A DNA stretch of 64,000 bases from Candidatus Binatia bacterium (lineage in GTDB: Bacteria > Desulfobacterota > Binatia > UBA12015): the NCBI GenBank assembly GCA_029248525.1, contig JAQWJE010000039.1, forward strand, positions 186,001 through 250,000. Direction: 5' to 3'. Below the pieces are notes generated by a model. The model was not told where the DNA came from and ran no database searches. It was given only the letters and a program-made list of their open reading frames with translations. This document shows positions 14,821-28,143 of the stretch, in pieces (position 1 is the first letter of the stretch; the number at the start of each line of letters is the position of its first letter). The position numbers were made by a program, and so were the translations under genes.

Positions 14821-15360
14821 ATGTTTTCCCGTTTATTGATCTCGCTTGCTGTTTTTTTTCTCATTGCTGGGGGACTCGGGGCCGCCGAGACAGGTCAACC
14901 GGGGCCGACGCCCGGTAATCCCGAGGATCGCGTGGGCGCGTTGACGGTTTTTGCGGATGGCGATGAGACGATGGGGGCGATTCCTCTGGGGGTGCAATTG
15001 GACGTCGAGGTTCTGCCCGGCACCGGGGTACCACCCTATCGCTACCATTGGGACTTTGGTGACGGCACGACATTCAGCGATCAGCAAAACCCTTCGCACG
15101 TCTACCGGGTACCGGGGAGCTTTCGCGCGAGTGTGATCGTGATTGACGGTCGAGAGGAGGTCGATCAGGACTACGTGGATGTGACCGTTTACGAAGTCGT
15201 GGGCGAAGGGGATGTGACGGCCCGAGAGTTGCAAGCGTGGGTGTCATCTCAAGGCAAGACAGGTGGCGTGGCGCCCTTCGTTGTCCGGCCGAGTCCGGGG
15301 GCCGATTCGGGGGCATCGCAGGGCGCAACGATCCCGGAGAGGTCGGCCTCGGGGAAGTAG
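14821..15360 (+). CDS. Secreted PKD-domain protein
   Basis: Protein of 179 residues. It has a signal peptide (hydrophobic run, cleavage near GLGAAE), one PKD domain carrying the diagnostic YHWDFGDGTTFSDQQNPSHVY with a following beta-strand VTV, and a Ser/Gly/Pro-rich tail of about 45 residues. PKD domains are Ig-like modules found on bacterial surface and secreted proteins and usually mediate binding. It is divergent from the DUF1499 gene. A single PKD module with no enzymatic domain leaves the role open. Confidence 0.75.
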   Translation: MFSRLLISLAVFFLIAGGLGAAETGQPGPTPGNPEDRVGALTVFADGDETMGAIPLGVQLDVEVLPGTGVPPYRYHWDFGDGTTFSDQQNPSHVYRVPGSFRASVIVIDGREEVDQDYVDVTVYEVVGEGDVTARELQAWVSSQGKTGGVAPFVVRPSPGADSGASQGATIPERSASGK

Positions 15361-18889: not shown

Positions 18890-19177
18890 CTAGTCGAGAA
18901 TCTTGGGAACACGAAGGAAGGTTTCGTCCGGGTCTGGTGCGCCGGCGACCATCTCGCGGGCTCGTTCCGGGTTGGTCACGGCATCTTCCCGCAGGACCGG
19001 GCGCTCGTTCCCGGACCCCAGAGTGGGCAGAACACCGTCGGTGTCGAGTTCCTGGAGCTTTTCGACGTATGCCAGGATCGACTCCAACTCCCCTCGCAAC
19101 GAATGCTTTTCTTCCTCGCGCAGGCCAAGCCTGGCAAGGCGTGCCATGTTTTCCACATCCTCGATAGTCACCGCCAT
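18890..19177 (-). CDS. gatC: Aspartyl/glutamyl-tRNA amidotransferase subunit C
   Basis: Protein of 95 residues. The GatC pattern is present: VEDVENMARLARLGLREEE at the start and a conserved DPDETFLRVPKILD C-terminus. It stabilises the GatA-GatB interface. It is first in gatC-gatA-gatB and divergent from the DUF2760 operon, whose promoter must lie between about 19178 and 19249. Confidence 0.93.
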   Translation of the reverse strand: MAVTIEDVENMARLARLGLREEEKHSLRGELESILAYVEKLQELDTDGVLPTLGSGNERPVLREDAVTNPERAREMVAGAPDPDETFLRVPKILD

Positions 19178-19249
19178 GAGGTGTCTTTACATGGCGGTTG
19201 GGGAAGCGGCAATTTGCACGAGGGAGCCCCGACCGCGAAACTAGGTTTC

Positions 19250-19966
19250 ATGGGAATGCAGGCAGGTGGGCAGCGTCGTTTTTTTTGGAGCTTTGCAGGG
19301 TTGGTGGTCTCCTGGGCCGGAGTTTTCTGGGCGCTCGCGGCGCTTGGTTCCATCAACGCGGCCGCCTGGGTGGCTTACCAGGAGGCGTGGACGGCCGGTG
19401 ACCCGCAGATCATTCTGAGGGCGACCGGCGAGTCGCCCGGCCTCCCCGCTTTTGTGGCGCTCTTTCTTGGTCCTGTGGTCGCCCTTCTGGCCGGGCGGAT
19501 GAGCGGTTCGGGTGTCCCGGTGAAGGTGGAGACGGAAGCACGCCCTCCCGAACCGCCGGAGGCGCCGGTCGGCCCGGATCCGGATGCTGTGGCGCTTCGT
19601 CTGCTGGCTACTCTGCAGGAAGAGGCTCGCCTTCTGGATTTTGTGTCGGAAGATGTGGCCGGCTACAGTGACGAGGAGGTCGGGGCCGCGGCAAGGGGCG
19701 TGCACGCAGGTCTCGTGAGAGCGCTGCGAGATCGGGTTCGCCTTGCACCCCTGCGTGAGGAGGAGGAGGGCGCTCCGGTGGTTCTGGAGGAGGGTTTCTC
19801 GCCGGTCTCCATCCGGCTGCAGGGGAGCCCGACGGGCCAGGCTCCGTGGCAGGGCGTTCTTGTGCATCCTGGCTGGATCGCAACCTTTGTGGAGCTCCCG
19901 CGAGCCACCGAAGGAAGTGACCCTCGGATTTTGGCGCCTGCGGAAATCGATGTGAATCAAGGATGA
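19250..19966 (+). CDS. DUF2760 protein, first gene of an Hsp70-like operon
   Basis: Protein of about 238 residues. Two hydrophobic segments (about residues 15-40 and 65-85) form an N-terminal membrane anchor. After a Pro/Glu-rich linker comes the DUF2760 domain, recognisable by ALRLLATLQEEARLLDF and the following SEDVAGYSDEEVGAAARG. No function has been assigned to the domain that I know of. ATG 19250 (or 19256) is preferred over the longer frame, which overlaps gatC. Its stop overlaps the start of the first Hsp70 gene in ATGA. A membrane anchor next to two soluble chaperone-like ATPases suggests a recruiting or docking role (inference). Confidence 0.78.
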   Translation: MGMQAGGQRRFFWSFAGLVVSWAGVFWALAALGSINAAAWVAYQEAWTAGDPQIILRATGESPGLPAFVALFLGPVVALLAGRMSGSGVPVKVETEARPPEPPEAPVGPDPDAVALRLLATLQEEARLLDFVSEDVAGYSDEEVGAAARGVHAGLVRALRDRVRLAPLREEEEGAPVVLEEGFSPVSIRLQGSPTGQAPWQGVLVHPGWIATFVELPRATEGSDPRILAPAEIDVNQG

Positions 19967-21783
19967 GTGCAAGTCCCGACGGAAGCCGATACGTCGTTGG
20001 CATCGACCTCGGTACCACCAATTCCGGAGTTGCCTGGATCGACCTAGAGAATATTTCGGTCGGTGTCGAGATGTTGGCGATCCCGCAAGTGGTTGCGGCC
20101 GGGTCGGTCGAGGCCCTCACTTCGCTTCCTTCCTGTCTCTATCTTCCCCGGCGTGATGAGCAGGAAATTGGTTCGCTGCAATCACCGTGGGGCCCGACAC
20201 CTCCAGGCGTCGCCGGTACCTTCGCTCTGCGGCGATCGGGGGCAAATCCGGATCAGGTGATTCATTCGGCGAAGTCCTGGCTTTGCCATCAGGCCGGTTT
20301 TGCCGGTGAACCTCTGCTCCCCGAAGGCGTTGGCGAGGAGTTCGTGCGAATTTCGGCGCTGGAGGCGAGTACGGCGTACCTGCGGCATTTGCGGGAGGCA
20401 TGGGATTGGCAGATGGCCGGCAAGGATGCGGGCCTTCGTCTGGAACATCAAGATGTCGTGCTGACGGTGCCGGCTTCGTTTGATGCAGCCGCGCGAGAGC
20501 AGACAATCGCGGCTGCTCGCGACGCGGGCATCCAGAATCCGCAATTGCTCGAAGAGCCTCAGGCAGCGGTGTATCACTGGGCAGGACTGGATGGAGCCCG
20601 ATTACGGGAGAATCTGGTTCTGGGCGACTCCGTGCTCGTATGTGACGTAGGGGGCGGGACGACCGACTTCAGCTTGCTCGTTGTTGACGAGCAGGATGGC
20701 GAACTTCATCTTGAGCGGGTCGCGGTGGGCGACCATCTTCTGCTGGGCGGGGATAATATGGATCTCGCGCTCGCGTTTGATGTGCGTCAGAAATTGGCGA
20801 AGGAAGGTACCCGTCTGGACCCGCAACAGTTCCGCTCACTGGTGGCATCGTGTCGCGAGGGGAAAGAAAGTCTTCTCGCGGAGGGCGGACCCGACGAGTT
20901 CCCGCTCACCGTGCTCGCTCGGTCTCGGAAGCTTTTGGGTGGGACGATTCGCGCCACGCTGCTTCGAGCCGATATGGAGCGATTGTTGCTGGGCGGGTTT
21001 TTTGCGGAGGTCCCGGCGAATCATGAGTCGAGCCCTCAGGATCAGGAGGGGCTCCAGGAAATAGGGCTTCCTTTTGCTCGGGACCCCTCGATCACGGCTC
21101 ATCTGGCGACCTTCCTCCGAAATCATGGTCATCAGCTCGAAGGCGCCAGCGGCCCAACCTGCCTGCTTCTGAATGGCGGGGTGCTCGCGGCACCCCCGAT
21201 CGTCGGCAGGTTGGAGTCGGTTTTGGGCAAATGGGCGGCGGAAAAGGGTGGGACTCCGCCGCGGCTTCTGCAAGGCGCAAATTTGGCGGAAGGTGTCGCA
21301 CGTGGCGCTGCGGTCTTCGGGGCGGCGCGTCGCGGGGAGGGTCTGCGAATCCGCAGCGGCGCTGCGCGCTCGTATTATATCGGCATGGCGAGTTCCATGC
21401 CGGCGGTGCCGGGGCAGGCTCCGGCGCAGAGAAGTATCTGCGTGGTTCCCTTCGGACTCGAGGAGGGAAGTTCGGTCGTGATCCCCGGGATGCAATTGGG
21501 ACTTTTGCTTGGCGCCCATGCGGAGTTCCGGCTCTATGCCTCCTCGACTCGCAATGACGACTGCGCCGGAACGCTGCTCGATGAGTTTGAAACCGAGGAA
21601 CTCGACGAGCTGGCGCCGTTGGGCGTTGAGCTATCCGGGGTGGCCGGCGCTCGCGTGCAGGTCCACATGGAATCGCATTTGACGGAAATCGGTACGCTCG
21701 AAATTTTCTTCGTCGCGGAGGGGGACGGTCGCTGGCAACTGACCTTCGGGGTAAGGGCCGAAGGGGGAGCTGAGCATGGCTGA
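19963..21783 (+). CDS. Divergent Hsp70-family protein 1
   Basis: Protein of 606 residues with an intact actin-like ATPase domain (about 1-450): phosphate-1 loop GIDLGTTNSGVA, VVLTVPASFDAAAREQT, connect region LLEEPQAAVYHW, phosphate-2 loop VCDVGGGTTDFSLL, HLLLGGDNMDLALA and the adenosine motif LLNGGVLAAPPI. About 150 residues follow that look like a beta-sandwich substrate domain with THE-family phrase LTEIGTLEIFF. The alpha-helical lid of DnaK and its EEVD-like tail are missing. There is no DnaJ or GrpE gene nearby. It overlaps both neighbours and is clearly paralogous to the next gene. Confidence 0.85.
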   Translation: MSASPDGSRYVVGIDLGTTNSGVAWIDLENISVGVEMLAIPQVVAAGSVEALTSLPSCLYLPRRDEQEIGSLQSPWGPTPPGVAGTFALRRSGANPDQVIHSAKSWLCHQAGFAGEPLLPEGVGEEFVRISALEASTAYLRHLREAWDWQMAGKDAGLRLEHQDVVLTVPASFDAAAREQTIAAARDAGIQNPQLLEEPQAAVYHWAGLDGARLRENLVLGDSVLVCDVGGGTTDFSLLVVDEQDGELHLERVAVGDHLLLGGDNMDLALAFDVRQKLAKEGTRLDPQQFRSLVASCREGKESLLAEGGPDEFPLTVLARSRKLLGGTIRATLLRADMERLLLGGFFAEVPANHESSPQDQEGLQEIGLPFARDPSITAHLATFLRNHGHQLEGASGPTCLLLNGGVLAAPPIVGRLESVLGKWAAEKGGTPPRLLQGANLAEGVARGAAVFGAARRGEGLRIRSGAARSYYIGMASSMPAVPGQAPAQRSICVVPFGLEEGSSVVIPGMQLGLLLGAHAEFRLYASSTRNDDCAGTLLDEFETEELDELAPLGVELSGVAGARVQVHMESHLTEIGTLEIFFVAEGDGRWQLTFGVRAEGGAEHG

Positions 21784-24514
21784 TTTTGTTGTCGGAATTG
21801 ATTTGGGTACGACCAATTCATCTCTGGCCTTCGCTGATTCGAGTGGTGACTCGCGGCCGCAATCGTTTCAGATTCCGCAATTGGTCAGCGAAGGGGAAGT
21901 TGCGGGTCGTGCGACACTGCCGTCCGCCCTCTACCTCGCCGGCGAGCACGATGTCGCGGCGGAAGCGATTGTGCTGCCTTGGGCGAGTCCGCAGGAGGAG
22001 GTGGTGGGCACTCTGGCGACAGCCTTGGGAACGCGTCAGGCAGGGCGTCTGGTGACCTCGGCCAAGTCCTGGTTGTGTCACGGCGGGGTCGACCGCGAGT
22101 CGGCCATTCTTCCGTGGGGTGCCGATGCAGAGGTCCGCAAGCGGTCTCCCGTGGAGGTTTCTTCTCGATTTCTCGCCCATATGAAGGCGGGCTGGGATGC
22201 CCGGCATCCCGATTCCCCTCTCTCCCGGCAAGATGTGGTTTTGGCGGTTCCGGCATCGTTTGACGAAGTCGCTCGCGAACTCACCGTGCAGGCCGCTTCG
22301 CTCGCCGGGTTGGAAAGAGTCCGCCTTCTCGAGGAACCTCAGGCAGCTCTCTATGCGTGGACCGCCACCCACGAGAACTGGCGAAGCCTTCTCGAAGGTA
22401 TTTCCCTGATCCTTGTGGTGGATGTCGGCGGCGGAACGACCGATTTCTCGTTGGTGGCAGTGCGCACCACCGCCACGGGACGCGGGCTCGAACGCACCTT
22501 CGTCGGAAACCATTTGCTTGTGGGGGGCGACAATATGGATCTGGCGTTGGCGCACGCAATCGTCGGCGATCGACGTTCCGGGCTGGACGCGCCTCGCTGG
22601 CAGCAGCTCACCTTGCAGACACGACTCGCCAAGGAGCGAATCCTCGATGCCAACGATCCCGCCGATTCCGTCGAGATTGCGGTTGCCGGGGGTGGGCGGC
22701 GTCTGCTCGGGAATACCTTGAGAGGCAGTCTGGCCGGTTCCCTCGCCGAGAAGACCCTTCTCGAGGGTTTTTTTCCGCTGGTGGAGGCGGATGCTCGACC
22801 GCTGGAAACCGAGGCAGGCCTGCAGGAGTTTGGCCTTCCGTTTGCGGCAGATCCGGCGATCTCGCGTCATCTGGCGGCCTTTCTGGGTCGCGCCTCTGCT
22901 GCTCTCGGGACCGGAGTGGTCCCCGATGCCGTTCTTTTTAATGGTGGGGCCCTCAAGCCTGAGCCGATCCGGAAACGCCTTTGCGAGCAGCTCCTTCGTT
23001 GGACAGGGCGATCCCCAGTCGAGCTGGCCGATGCCGATCATGACCTTGCGGTCGCTCGAGGGGCCGTCGCGTACGGAAAAGCTCTGCGAGGAAGCGGGAA
23101 CCGGATCTCCGGGGGCTCGGCGCGTTCGTACTTTCTGGGGGTTGCCGGTCGCGAGCCGCCCACGATGGTCTGCCTGGCCAGCCGGGGAATGCAGGAGGGC
23201 GAAGAGGTTGAACTGAGCGAGCCACTCCTCGAGCTCGCCACCAACCAGCATGTGCAATTTCCGCTCTTCGTGTCGACCACAAGGATGGGCGATACACCCG
23301 GAGCGCTGTACCCGCGGGATAGCGACAGCGTTACCGCTCTGCCGCCGCTGGGCAGTCGTCTGCAGTTCGGCAAGTCTCTGGAATCTCGTCCTGTTCCAGT
23401 GAGTTTGCGAGCACTTCTCACAGAAACGGGGACCCTGGAAGTCTGGTGCGAATCGAGGGAAACCACGCATCGCTGGAAATTGTCCTTCGATCTCCGTACC
23501 CAAGCCACGTCGGAGACATGGGCGCCCGAAGGGGGAGAGGAATCCTCTGGTGCCGAAACGGTGTTCGCGCCCGAGGCGCTCGCGAAAGCAGAGACGGTCC
23601 TTGCCCAAGCCTTTGTCGGGGATGCGGATCCGGTCCGGGTGATGGCAAGGCTGGAGGACGTTCTGGGTCTGTCGCGCAGTGGCTGGCCGATGCCCGCATT
23701 GCGCCATTTATGGGATGTTCTCCTCGCGCATGAATCCTTCCGTCGGCGTTCGCCGGAGCACGAATCACGGTGGTTGAACCTTTGTGGCTACCTGCTTCGC
23801 CCAGGCTATGGAGAACTTGGAGACGATCTCCGTTCGGAGAAGGTCTGGCGGCTCTTCAACGAGGGACTCTACTTCCCGAAATCGAGTCAATGCGGTGCCG
23901 AATGGTGGGTTCTCTGGAAGCGGGTCGCCGGGGGGTTGAGTCGGCCGCAGCAAACAGCGCTTTTGCAGGAGTTACGCCCCGTCTTGTTGCCCGGGAATCG
24001 TCGGCGCAAGAACCGGAAGCGCTCCGCAGCCCAGCAATTCCGTGAAATGTGGCAGGTTGCCGGCTCGCTCGAGCGAGTCGGTGTCGGGCCCAAGGGCGAA
24101 GTTTTCGATGGCCTCCTCGGCAAGACGGCCGATTTGCAATCGCTCTCGGACGCAGAGGTCTGGGCGCTGGGTCGGATGGGGGCTCGCGAACTCGTTTATG
24201 GTCCAGCGGATACTGTTCTTCCGCCCGCACGGGTGGCCGAAGTCTTGCGGGCGTTCCTGAACTGCCCCGGAGATCTTTCTCCGTCGCAGGCCTTGGCCGT
24301 CGCCCAGATGGCACGTCGTTCGGGTGACCGCGCAAGAGACCTCGAGGAGGATTTACGCGAGGCATGTGCGCAACGCCTTTCCGGGAACGAAAACACCCGC
24401 GAACTCGCGGCGATCGTTCGGACGGTTCAGCCTGCGAGTCCCGAACTCCGAGCCCGCATCGTCGCCGACAGTCTTCCCACCGGCCTTCGCATCGTCCTCG
24501 ATGACAATCCGTAG
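21776..24514 (+). CDS. Divergent Hsp70-family protein 2 with long C-terminal extension (DUF3731-like)
   Basis: Protein of 912 residues. Residues 1-580 parallel the preceding Hsp70 protein: GIDLGTTNSSLAFA, VVLAVPASFDEVAREL, LLEEPQAALYAW, VVDVGGGTTDFSLV, LLVGGDNMDLALA, LFNGGALKPEPI and LTETGTLEVWC. Residues 580-912 form an extra, mainly helical region (for example YLLRPGYGELGDDLRSEKVW, then a basic NRRRKNRKRSAAQQF) resembling what is annotated as DUF3731 in such operons; my recollection of that name is moderate. The gene overlaps the previous one by 8 bases. The pair probably works as a hetero-complex (inference). Confidence 0.82.
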   Translation: MADFVVGIDLGTTNSSLAFADSSGDSRPQSFQIPQLVSEGEVAGRATLPSALYLAGEHDVAAEAIVLPWASPQEEVVGTLATALGTRQAGRLVTSAKSWLCHGGVDRESAILPWGADAEVRKRSPVEVSSRFLAHMKAGWDARHPDSPLSRQDVVLAVPASFDEVARELTVQAASLAGLERVRLLEEPQAALYAWTATHENWRSLLEGISLILVVDVGGGTTDFSLVAVRTTATGRGLERTFVGNHLLVGGDNMDLALAHAIVGDRRSGLDAPRWQQLTLQTRLAKERILDANDPADSVEIAVAGGGRRLLGNTLRGSLAGSLAEKTLLEGFFPLVEADARPLETEAGLQEFGLPFAADPAISRHLAAFLGRASAALGTGVVPDAVLFNGGALKPEPIRKRLCEQLLRWTGRSPVELADADHDLAVARGAVAYGKALRGSGNRISGGSARSYFLGVAGREPPTMVCLASRGMQEGEEVELSEPLLELATNQHVQFPLFVSTTRMGDTPGALYPRDSDSVTALPPLGSRLQFGKSLESRPVPVSLRALLTETGTLEVWCESRETTHRWKLSFDLRTQATSETWAPEGGEESSGAETVFAPEALAKAETVLAQAFVGDADPVRVMARLEDVLGLSRSGWPMPALRHLWDVLLAHESFRRRSPEHESRWLNLCGYLLRPGYGELGDDLRSEKVWRLFNEGLYFPKSSQCGAEWWVLWKRVAGGLSRPQQTALLQELRPVLLPGNRRRKNRKRSAAQQFREMWQVAGSLERVGVGPKGEVFDGLLGKTADLQSLSDAEVWALGRMGARELVYGPADTVLPPARVAEVLRAFLNCPGDLSPSQALAVAQMARRSGDRARDLEEDLREACAQRLSGNENTRELAAIVRTVQPASPELRARIVADSLPTGLRIVLDDNP

Positions 24515-24976: not shown

Positions 24977-26257
24977 ATGCTCGATATTCGAAAGATTCGT
25001 GAGACCCCGGACCTCTGCCGGGAGGGTTTGGCCAAGGTGCAGGCCGATCCGTCCCTGATCGACCAGGTACTGGAACTGGATACCCGACGCCGCGAGGCAC
25101 TCCATGGTCTGGAGTCCCGTCGCGCCGAGCGCACCAAGCGCTCCAAGGAGATCGGCAAGCTTCCCCCTGAGGAGCGCAAGGCTGCCGGAGCCTCGGTCAG
25201 CTCACTGGCCGCAGAGATCGCCGATCTTGAAAAAGTGGTCGACGAAGCCACTACGGCCTTCAGGAATTTGATGCTGGAGATCCCGAACTTGCCGCACCCG
25301 GCGGTTCCCGAGGGTGCCCACGACGCCGACAACGTCGTGCTCCGCACCGAGGGAACGCCGGTGTCTTTTTCGTTTACAGCCAAGCCTCATTGGGAAATTG
25401 GCCCGGCGCTCGGGGCGATTGATTTCGAGCGAGGCGTGAAGATCTCGGGATCTCGCTTCTACGTGCTGACCGGGCCCGGCGCGCGCCTGCAGAGAGCCCT
25501 GATCAGTTTCATGCTGGACGTCCATACGCGGGAACACGACTATGTCGAGATTTACCCGCCGGCGATGGTCAAGGAGCATTGCCTCGTCGGGACAGGCAAT
25601 CTGCCGAAGTTTGCAGAGCATCTCTATCGGGATATCGAGGGTGAGCATTGGTGGGTGCCGACGGCTGAAGTCCCGGTGACGAACCTGTACCGCGATGAAG
25701 TTCTTCCCGAGGCTGATCTGCCGGTCCGGCACGTCGCGTATTCACCATGCTTTCGCCGCGAGAAAATGTCGGCAGGTCGCGACGTGCGCGGGATAAAACG
25801 AGGCCACCAATTCGACAAGGTCGAGATGGTGAAGTTTGTGCATCCCGAGCATTCCGACGCGGAGCTGGAGAGTCTTCTGGGCGATGCCGAGGACATCTGC
25901 AAGCGCCTGGGCCTGACCTATCGTGTCATTCAGATGTGCACGGGGGACCTCAGCTTCGTCGCAGCGATCAAGTTCGATATCGATGTATGGGCACCGGGCA
26001 GTGAGGAGTGGCTTGAGGTCAGCTCTTGCGCGAATTTCGGAGATTTCCAGGCCCGCCGTGCCAACCTTCGTTTCCGGCCAGAGGCTGGGGGCAAGCCGGA
26101 CTTCCTGCATACCCTGAACGGTTCCGGTCTGGCGCTGCCAAGAATCATGATCGCGATTCTCGAGACCTACCAGCAAGAGGACGGGAGTGTCGTCGTGCCG
26201 GAGGTCCTGCGTCCCTATCTGGGCGGTGAGAGTCTCCTGACGGTGAAGGGCGAATAA
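24977..26257 (+). CDS. serS: Seryl-tRNA synthetase
   Basis: Protein of 426 residues, class II. The N-terminal coiled-coil tRNA-binding arm covers about residues 30-100. Catalytic motif 2 is HVAYSPCFRREKMSAGRDVRGIKRGHQFDKVE, and motif 3 is GSGLALPRIMIAILETYQ. It charges tRNA-Ser and tRNA-Sec. The stop TAA shares its last A with the ATG of the ETF gene (TAATG), so the two are coupled. Confidence 0.97.
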   Translation: MLDIRKIRETPDLCREGLAKVQADPSLIDQVLELDTRRREALHGLESRRAERTKRSKEIGKLPPEERKAAGASVSSLAAEIADLEKVVDEATTAFRNLMLEIPNLPHPAVPEGAHDADNVVLRTEGTPVSFSFTAKPHWEIGPALGAIDFERGVKISGSRFYVLTGPGARLQRALISFMLDVHTREHDYVEIYPPAMVKEHCLVGTGNLPKFAEHLYRDIEGEHWWVPTAEVPVTNLYRDEVLPEADLPVRHVAYSPCFRREKMSAGRDVRGIKRGHQFDKVEMVKFVHPEHSDAELESLLGDAEDICKRLGLTYRVIQMCTGDLSFVAAIKFDIDVWAPGSEEWLEVSSCANFGDFQARRANLRFRPEAGGKPDFLHTLNGSGLALPRIMIAILETYQQEDGSVVVPEVLRPYLGGESLLTVKGE

Positions 26258-28143
26258 TGGACACTACCGTGGGCCCCCGTATTCTGGTGCTCGTGAAGCA
26301 GGTTCCCGAGGTCACCGAGCAAAGCCTCGATCCCGAGACCGGACGTTTGCGGCGCGAGGGCGTGGACCTTCTGATGAACCCTTTCGATCGACGCGCCGCA
26401 CTGGAGGCCTGTCGTTTGCGCGAGGATGCCGGCGGCGGTTGGGTTTGTGCTGTGACCATGGGGCCACCGCAGGCCGAGTCGATCCTGCGCGAATGTCTGG
26501 CTCTTGGCTTCGACGAGGCGTTTCACCTTTGCGACCCCGGTTTTGGGGGCGCGGATACTCTCGCCACGGCGCGGGCTCTGGCAGACTTGATCGAGCCTAT
26601 GCGACCGGACCTCATTCTCGCCGGGCGCTACAGTATTGACGCCGAAACGGGACAGGTGCCTTCCGAAGTAGCGGCCTTTATCGGTGCGGCGCATTTGCCC
26701 GGGGCACGACGACTCGAACTCAAGCCGGATCCCGAACAAACCCGGGGCTTTATCGCTGTCGCGGAATGCGAAGGCGATGATGGTGCGGTGACGGGTGAAG
26801 CACTGTGTCCGGTTGTCGTGACTTGCACGGATCGCTGGAAGACACGCATGCCCCGAAGATTGCCCGACGAGGATCGGGAGAAGAATGCCCCGGTCGATCG
26901 CCGCGGTGTCAGTGACCTGGCGGGTCCGGCCGAGGTTTATGGGAGCGCCGGGTCTCCGACATGGGTGGAAGATGTTCGCATGGTCCCGCTGGCGAGGGCG
27001 CAACGAACAAGAAATGCCGAGGGTGACCCGGAAGGTGCGGCGGAAGATATTCTGGATCTGGTGCGGGAGAAGTTGTCGCATGCCGAGTCGCGCGCAGGCG
27101 TTCCCAAGGTCGCCCATCTGTCCCTGCCGGTCGGGCCCGGTGGAATTGTCGTCGTTGGGGAATTGGACCCGGAAGGACAGATCCGGCCCGTGACCTTCGA
27201 GCTGCTCGCCGCGGCTGATCGGCTGGCCAGTCACCTCAAGGCCTCGGTCGCCGTTTTTCTTTTGGGCCCGGCGTGGGGACGGCAGCCTGACTGGCGCGAT
27301 GGCACTGCCTGGAGCGAAGAGATCCGTGCCGAGCTCGGTCACTTCGGCGCCGACTACTGGATTCGACCGGAAGAGAGTTCCGGGACCGCACTTGGTGCCA
27401 TCGGGGTGCTCGAGAGTGCGATCGAGGAAATCCAGCCGGCAATCGCACTGGGGCCCGCGACCTCCCTGGGGCGCGATCAATTGCCTCATTTGGCCGCACG
27501 TCTGGGCCTCGGATTGACCGGCGACGCGATTGGCGTCGAGATGGACCCGAGCCATGGCTTGCTCGCCCTCAAGCCGGCCTTCGGGGGGCAATTGGTCGCA
27601 CCGATCGCCTCCCGGACTTTACCGGCATTCGCGACCCTGCGGGCAGGGGTTCTCGACAGGAGCGAACCCGACCGAAATCGCGCTCCGGCAGAGATCCTCG
27701 AGTTCGGGGACGAAGAGACGCTGATGGAGCCCCATTGGCACGATTTCGTTCGCGAAACAGAGTTGGGTGGGGTCGATCTGGATCAGGCTTCGCTGGTGAT
27801 TTGCGCGGGCTTCGGTCTCGGTGGGGACGAACATATGGCCAAGGTCACCAGGCTCGCAGAGAAGCTCGGGGGGGTCGTTTGCGGGACGCGGCGAGTCTGT
27901 GATCTGGGTTGGTTGCCGCGTCAGGCTCAGGTGGGATTGTCCGGGCGCTATATTGGTCCCCACGTTTACCTCGGGCTCGGGGTTCGGGGTTCCTTCAATC
28001 ATACGGTCGGGATCCGGCGGGCTGGAACGGTCATCGGAGTCAATAATAACCCGAAGGCGGAAATCTTTGCGGCCTCGGACCTTGGGGTACTCGGCGACGC
28101 CCCGGCGATGCTCGAAGCGTTGCTGGCGGTAGCTCGCGGCTAG
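26257..28143 (+). CDS. Single-chain electron transfer flavoprotein (EtfB-EtfA fusion)
   Basis: Protein of 628 residues that carries a complete beta-subunit-like half followed by an alpha-subunit-like half. Residues 1-260 show the EtfB start [29 protein letters not shown] and [15 protein letters not shown]. Residues about 310-628 show EtfA features, including the FAD-binding end [16 protein letters not shown], then [20 protein letters not shown] and [15 protein letters not shown] carries electrons from acyl-CoA dehydrogenases to ETF:quinone oxidoreductase; Mcd at 4.3 kb is a possible client. Separate etfB and etfA genes are the rule, so the fusion is unusual. It has no frameshift, so the fused frame is continuous as read. 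Confidence 0.85.

Follow-up and report, generated by a model that had tools for sequence, protein, structure and literature searches.

The window, a stretch of 64,000 nucleotides from a Candidatus Binatia bacterium, carries three consecutive genes, here called A, B and C (Table 1). Gene A encodes a DUF2760 protein, and B and C encode two Hsp70-type ATPases. The reading frames of A and B overlap by 4 bp (ATGA at 19963–19966) and those of B and C by 8 bp, so that the Pfam matches and the overlaps bear out the arrangement given by an initial annotation of this DNA, a DUF2760 protein and two Hsp70-type ATPases in overlapping frames. DUF2760 and DUF3731, a domain of C, each occur in a single copy in the 4.27 Mb source genome. 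No J-protein or GrpE gene lies near the trio, as had been noted at first; those genes are on other contigs, with a grpE-dnaK-dnaJ cluster on contig C49, an HscB/HscA-like J/Hsp70 pair on contig C35 and a further J-domain on contig C52. Because the GrpE-DnaK-DnaJ cluster and the HscB/HscA-like pair are encoded elsewhere in the genome, the trio constitutes an additional Hsp70 system. Its two ATPases are unmistakably Hsp70 in their ATPase, yet they fail the features that define the DnaK and HscA types.

Table 1. Features of the DUF2760/Hsp70 locus (positions in the window)
Feature	Position	Strand	Evidence
A, DUF2760 protein, 238 aa	19250..19966	+	PF10816 E 3e-40; hydropathy; AlphaFold2 model; alignment with 31 homologues
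B, Hsp70-type ATPase, 606 aa	19963..21783	+	PF00012 E 4e-16; PDB DnaK matches E 1e-13; 26-homologue alignment; motif counts
C, Hsp70-type ATPase, 912 aa	21776..24514	+	PF00012 E 2e-18; PF12531 E 9e-73; AlphaFold2 model
Divergent gap between gatC and A	19178..19249		gatC starts at 19177 on the - strand (PF02686)

Both B and C pass the PF00012 cut-off, which places them in the Hsp70 superfamily. Motifs were counted in 50 B and 53 C proteins (103 in total) and in 49 control Hsp70s, using DnaK numbering. The seven catalytic residues D8, T11, K70, E171, D194, T199 and D201 are the same in every B (50/50) and every C (53/53) protein, in agreement with the intact ATPase motifs described initially. 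The interdomain linker VLLLD (DnaK D388–V394), by contrast with the controls (L390 in 46/49, L391 in 48/49, D393 in 47/49 and V394 in 46–48/49), falls in an alignment gap in every B and every C. At N170 and T173, which we take to be J-protein docking residues, all 103 proteins have a glutamate in place of the asparagine (kept in 46/49 controls), and the threonine is retained in only 3/103, being otherwise Q or L nearly always (47/49 controls). R167 is likewise retained in 10/103 proteins against 47/49 controls. Roles in J-domain contact or allostery are documented for R167, L391 and D393, the HPD motif of DnaJ touches L391 and R167, and the linker raises Hsp70 ATPase activity about 40-fold (PMC8215388). 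The threonines found at position T173 belong exclusively to C proteins of a single B-less clade (L047, L049 and L057; 3/53) and were not seen in the C proteins of other B-less lineages.

C is the larger of the two ATPases. Its nucleotide-binding domain (NBD) and beta domain occupy residues 1–577, and an all-helical C-terminal region of about residues 599–895 stands where DnaK has its lid; this region matches DUF3731 (PF12531, 'DNA-K related protein') over residues 659–906 with 245.6 bits, above the cut-off. In the AlphaFold2 model (mean predicted local distance difference test score, pLDDT, 82.7; predicted template modelling score 0.80), residues 1–577 superpose on DnaK and BiP. The structure search was made with the whole of C, whose Hsp70 part dominates the matches, and these included DnaK 9a5j_A (Z 39.3, 463 residues, root-mean-square deviation, rmsd, 4.2) and open ATP-bound DnaK 4b9q_A (Z 33.5, 467 residues, rmsd 3.8). 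B consists of an NBD and a beta substrate-binding-like domain, where the chain ends with neither a lid nor a linker motif. The DnaK lid, originally described as missing from both proteins, is thus truly absent from B, but in C its place is taken by the large helical DUF3731, which had been overlooked.

These departures from DnaK could also mean that B and C are no chaperones and instead serve as ATP-driven switches or scaffolds which, in an actin-like manner, assemble a membrane complex via A; the beta domain and DUF3731 would then dock proteins rather than grip clients. The loss of the allosteric linker from both proteins would fit such a role, as would the big helical domain in place of the lid in C and a conserved proline-rich loop, AMPAVPG, within the beta domain of B. 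The residues of the DnaK peptide groove are, moreover, not clearly kept in B and C, in an alignment whose register is unsure there, and C or B may therefore lack the client binding usual for Hsp70s. Nevertheless, about 460 residues of C, spanning its NBD-beta layout, can still be superposed on DnaK and BiP, and the scores of Hsp70 profiles lie far above that of the profile for the actin-like MreB. We consider a switch or scaffold unlikely, though it is the least unlikely of the alternatives weighed here.

The association between A and C was examined in 395 genomes from the phylum of the source genome and in 369 Gammaproteobacteria. In the first sample, DUF2760 and DUF3731 were each detected in 54/395 genomes and occurred together in 51 of the 57 positives (Fisher p 1e-56). 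The six exceptions, three with DUF2760 alone and three with DUF3731 alone, are all explicable: in five (G352, G390, G042, G078 and G275) a contig ends where the missing partner would be, and the sixth (G041) is an 85% complete assembly from a genus in which A-B lie kilobases from C. Among the Gammaproteobacteria, 13 genomes had both domains, one had C only and 355 had neither (p 5e-23), and the contig of the single exception (G581), which carries B and C, terminates exactly at the start of B. On three single-contig chromosomes (G161, G269 and G204) the two domains are found together in the genome although their genes are unlinked, and both were absent from 14 control genomes, E. coli and B. 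subtilis among them. The order A-B-C is common to Pseudomonadota, Desulfobacteraceae, Lentisphaerae, Verrucomicrobia and others, and was found in Caballeronia, Paraburkholderia, Methylococcus, Methylohalobius, Chromatiaceae, Vibrio hibernica and Photobacterium, as well as in named Desulfobacteraceae, Lentisphaerae, Chthoniobacter and Riflebacteria. Neighbourhood comparison therefore confirms that the trio recurs in other genomes, with strong co-occurrence and with gene order kept across phyla. It is very probable that A and C function together.

The module is also found on plasmids. A whole A-B-C trio lies between trb and tra genes on the conjugative plasmid pCC829_3 of Bradyrhizobium barranii (L172, 7387–12796), which implies that the module can move. 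Plasmid pTs485 of Candidatus Thiodictyon syntrophicum carries an A-B pair without C (L174, 9321–11839) that adjoins genes annotated as anti-phage (DUF499, DUF3780, DUF1156 and phospholipase D-like). A defence or phage origin was considered and rejected, as it had a single weak PADLOC match and the PHROGs matches were to generic Hsp70-like proteins only. In Cupriavidus sp. UYMMa02A, the trio is present as overlapping frame pieces and is either decayed or poorly sequenced (L109, 5516–10898). A long C frame in L063, which resembled a fusion, turned out to be an overlapping reading frame.

Gene B is the least constant member of the trio. Whole-genome searches with a B profile found it missing from at least eight genomes of the source phylum that keep A and C (G269, G204, G248, G155, G364, G228, G134 and G349), two of which (G269 and G204) are assembled in one contig each and are 99–100% complete. 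A Solibacter genome (G402) brings the B-less genomes to at least nine, and in three of these (G134, G349 and G402) C directly follows A. B was present in all gammaproteobacterial carriers tested. Mapping its presence on the C tree requires four changes, suggesting about four independent losses. Since B goes missing while C and A stay, we regard A and C as the core and B as an accessory. The initial annotation had instead proposed an obligate pair, that is, a B-C heterodimer working only as a pair and held at the membrane by A. B and C are indeed co-inherited, and among the genomes examined B was never seen without C except in assemblies cut at contig edges. However, the B-less genomes and the repeated losses already refute the obligate pair, and the membrane anchor of A is not universal either (see below), so that a heterodimer of this kind is very improbable, more so than any other reading considered.

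A tree was built from 50 B and 53 C proteins together with 10 other Hsp70s. In it, B formed a single clade (support 99), and B and C lay 6.4 changes per site away from the other Hsp70s, measured along a combined branch; the tree search was short and C may be paraphyletic. The old split agrees with the earlier description of B and C as diverged paralogues, and the topology fits one old duplication followed by joint inheritance of the two genes.

A is identified by its DUF2760 match (137 bits; cut-off 25). It comprises two N-terminal hydrophobic helices, the DUF2760 domain and a C-terminal tail, APAEIDVNQG. The hydropathy profile has maxima at residues 15 and 64, and the AlphaFold2 model (pLDDT 82.6) places helices at residues 5–34 and 65–85; one half of the DUF2760 domain is modelled as rich in helices and the other as beta, with pLDDT above 90 in most blocks of residues 121–210. 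Two hydrophobic helices are found in the source and in most of its phylum, and one helix in most of the Gammaproteobacteria seen. Eight intact DUF2760 proteins have no segment that passes the transmembrane threshold; they come from Paraburkholderia, another Pseudomonadota bacterium, Solibacter, Sulfotelmatobacter, Spartobacteria and Cloacimonadota. The docking at the membrane that was first suggested thus applies to the source locus and many relatives, but not to these eight proteins. As the anchor varies, anchoring is a frequent rather than a defining feature of A, which is defined by the DUF2760 domain and the tail. The A proteins of Burkholderiales have a mildly amphipathic N-terminal stretch (hydrophobic moment 0.50–0.53; shuffle fraction 0.02–0.06 with the best stretch picked), a weak hint of a peripheral membrane contact. 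In 50 of 55 proteins, the tail motif (P)AEVE(L/I/V) lies no more than four residues from the C-terminus, and AEVE(L/I/V) is plausibly a docking strand.

No J-domain match was found in A, DUF2760 being the only family reported up to E 1. Foldseek comparisons of its model with PDB and viral structures gave nothing significant (lowest E 0.12 and 0.057), and the best VIA hit had Z 5.4 with an rmsd of 8.9 over 97 residues; this lack of a structural match does not make the fold new. GrpE ranked third in the Foldseek comparison with the A model, at a level that is not significant (E 0.63, prob 0.11).

These results bear on whether B and C are divergent canonical Hsp70s that borrow DnaJ or HscB together with GrpE, with A as a mere membrane tether, in the way HscC works with the tail-anchored DjlB and DjlC. 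The J-proteins and GrpE encoded elsewhere in the source genome would be available for this, HscC provides a precedent for membrane-anchored partners (PMC8215388), and a link to the heat-shock response could be read in the near-consensus sigma-32 promoters detected upstream of A at three gammaproteobacterial loci (L088, L089 and L090; 11/12 matches, shuffle p 0.003–0.006). Nonetheless, the linker is deleted and the J-docking residues are replaced in nearly all B and C proteins, DUF2760 has no J-domain match, and A is kept with C even where it is not anchored in the membrane. We therefore judge borrowed co-chaperones improbable. The three promoters were the only sigma-32-like sites with p <0.01 among 54 upstream regions; the source locus had none at that threshold, and CIRCE scores upstream of the trio were at chance. 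There is thus a weak indication of heat-shock regulation.

Upstream of the trio, gatCAB lies on the opposite strand, and the divergent gap between gatC and A is most simply the place of the predicted promoter of the trio, although no sigma-70-like site was reported in that gap. A UPF0102 gene begins with GTG at the first base past the stop of C, and serS and an EtfB-EtfA fusion are located further downstream, the latter joining the beta and alpha parts of the electron transfer flavoprotein in a single 628-residue frame (26257–28143, +; PF01012 and PF00766). At 14821–15360 (+) lies a gene for a small PKD-domain protein whose N-terminus is signal-like. Across the surveyed loci, no recurrent neighbour or partner gene was found beyond lineage-specific ones, and the genomic context therefore points to no client.

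A published proteome of Burkholderia pseudomallei K96243 includes a 65 kDa 'Hsp70 family protein' (WP_004524146) that was lowered in a short-chain dehydrogenase mutant (PMC7085900). The forward quantitative PCR primer of that study encodes GEHILL and has its best match in gene B of five Burkholderiaceae loci, with 2–4 mismatches; B of B. cenocepacia reads GEHILLGGDNMDLAL. WP_004524146 is thus likely to be B, which would mean that B is made as a protein, but the identification is unproven because the reverse primer has no good match in those loci.

Overall, we picture a core machine formed by A and C with B as an accessory, a picture as likely to hold as to fail. A would bind C, and B where present, and would stand in for a J-protein by bringing the ATPase to its place or client and by triggering or timing ATP hydrolysis. 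In many lineages, it would hold the machine at the cytoplasmic face of the inner membrane through its one or two transmembrane helices. C, which would no longer answer to J-proteins in the usual way, could grip its client with the beta domain and the helical DUF3731 as a substitute for the lid. B, a shorter, lidless paralogue that can be lost, might tune C as a nucleotide-exchange or co-ATPase partner, as Hsp110 does; that B is an exchange factor seems rather doubtful, if still conceivable. Somewhat more tentatively than the division into core and accessory, and at a little less than an even chance, we propose that the trio represents an undescribed, multi-phylum class of bacterial Hsp70 that dispenses with J-proteins and GrpE, with DUF2760 as co-factor, DUF3731 as lid substitute and B as an optional exchange partner.

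Several points weigh against the picture of an A-C core with B as an accessory, in which the partner roles and the clients are inferred. Correlations between the distance matrices of the three proteins range from r 0.64 to 0.86, but shared descent alone would give them. Structure comparison yielded no significant match between A and any known co-chaperone, the exchange role of B is drawn from analogy only, and the state of the peptide groove described above is a further point. The loss of J-docking residues is a reading of the alignment, and J-proteins could dock in another mode. In the current view, Hsp70s need J-proteins for both targeting and triggering, and the trio would allow control by a protein of another kind to be tested, in a family that retains the catalytic centre, lacks the linker used in allostery as well as the residues for J-protein docking, and has become tied to one small protein across several phyla.

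A review of prokaryotic Hsp70s lists three types only, DnaK, HscA and HscC (PMC8215388), to which the trio would add a further type whose partner is dedicated to it and often anchored in the membrane. DUF2760, DUF3731 and their Pfam accessions were not mentioned in the literature searched, which left most subscription journals outside its coverage, and annotators use the labels 'DUF2760 domain-containing protein' and 'Hsp70 family protein'. As far as this literature goes, the two families are catalogued and apparently unstudied, and, in line with the initial annotation, no assigned function was found for the trio.

B and C resemble DnaK in having an NBD with the full catalytic set and a beta substrate-binding-type domain, with C superposing over 463–467 residues. 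They differ from it in the absent VLLLD linker, the replaced J-docking residues, the missing helical lid (B ends, and C has DUF3731) and the lack of an adjoining J-protein or GrpE gene. HscA provides the best NCBIfam profile for both B (E 8e-24) and C (E 2e-23) and is itself a specialised Hsp70 with a single dedicated partner, HscB. However, B and C reach only 77–84 bits against cut-offs of 620–709, HscA retains linker and lid, and the source genome has a separate HscA-like protein beside a J-domain gene. HscC shares with the trio the use of membrane-anchored partners, DjlB and DjlC (PMC8215388), which are J-proteins, whereas DUF2760 has no J-domain; no HscC model was among the NCBIfam matches of B and C, which is not a direct comparison with HscC. 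In the way it might work, the trio can be likened to the eukaryotic Hsp70-Hsp110 pair, in which two diverged Hsp70s act together and one has an extended C-terminal region. C also matches the NBD of Hsp110 in structure (6gfa, Z 33.1, 346 residues, rmsd 3.2), although no closer kinship with Hsp110 than with other Hsp70s was found, and the indispensable member of the trio is C rather than the shorter B.

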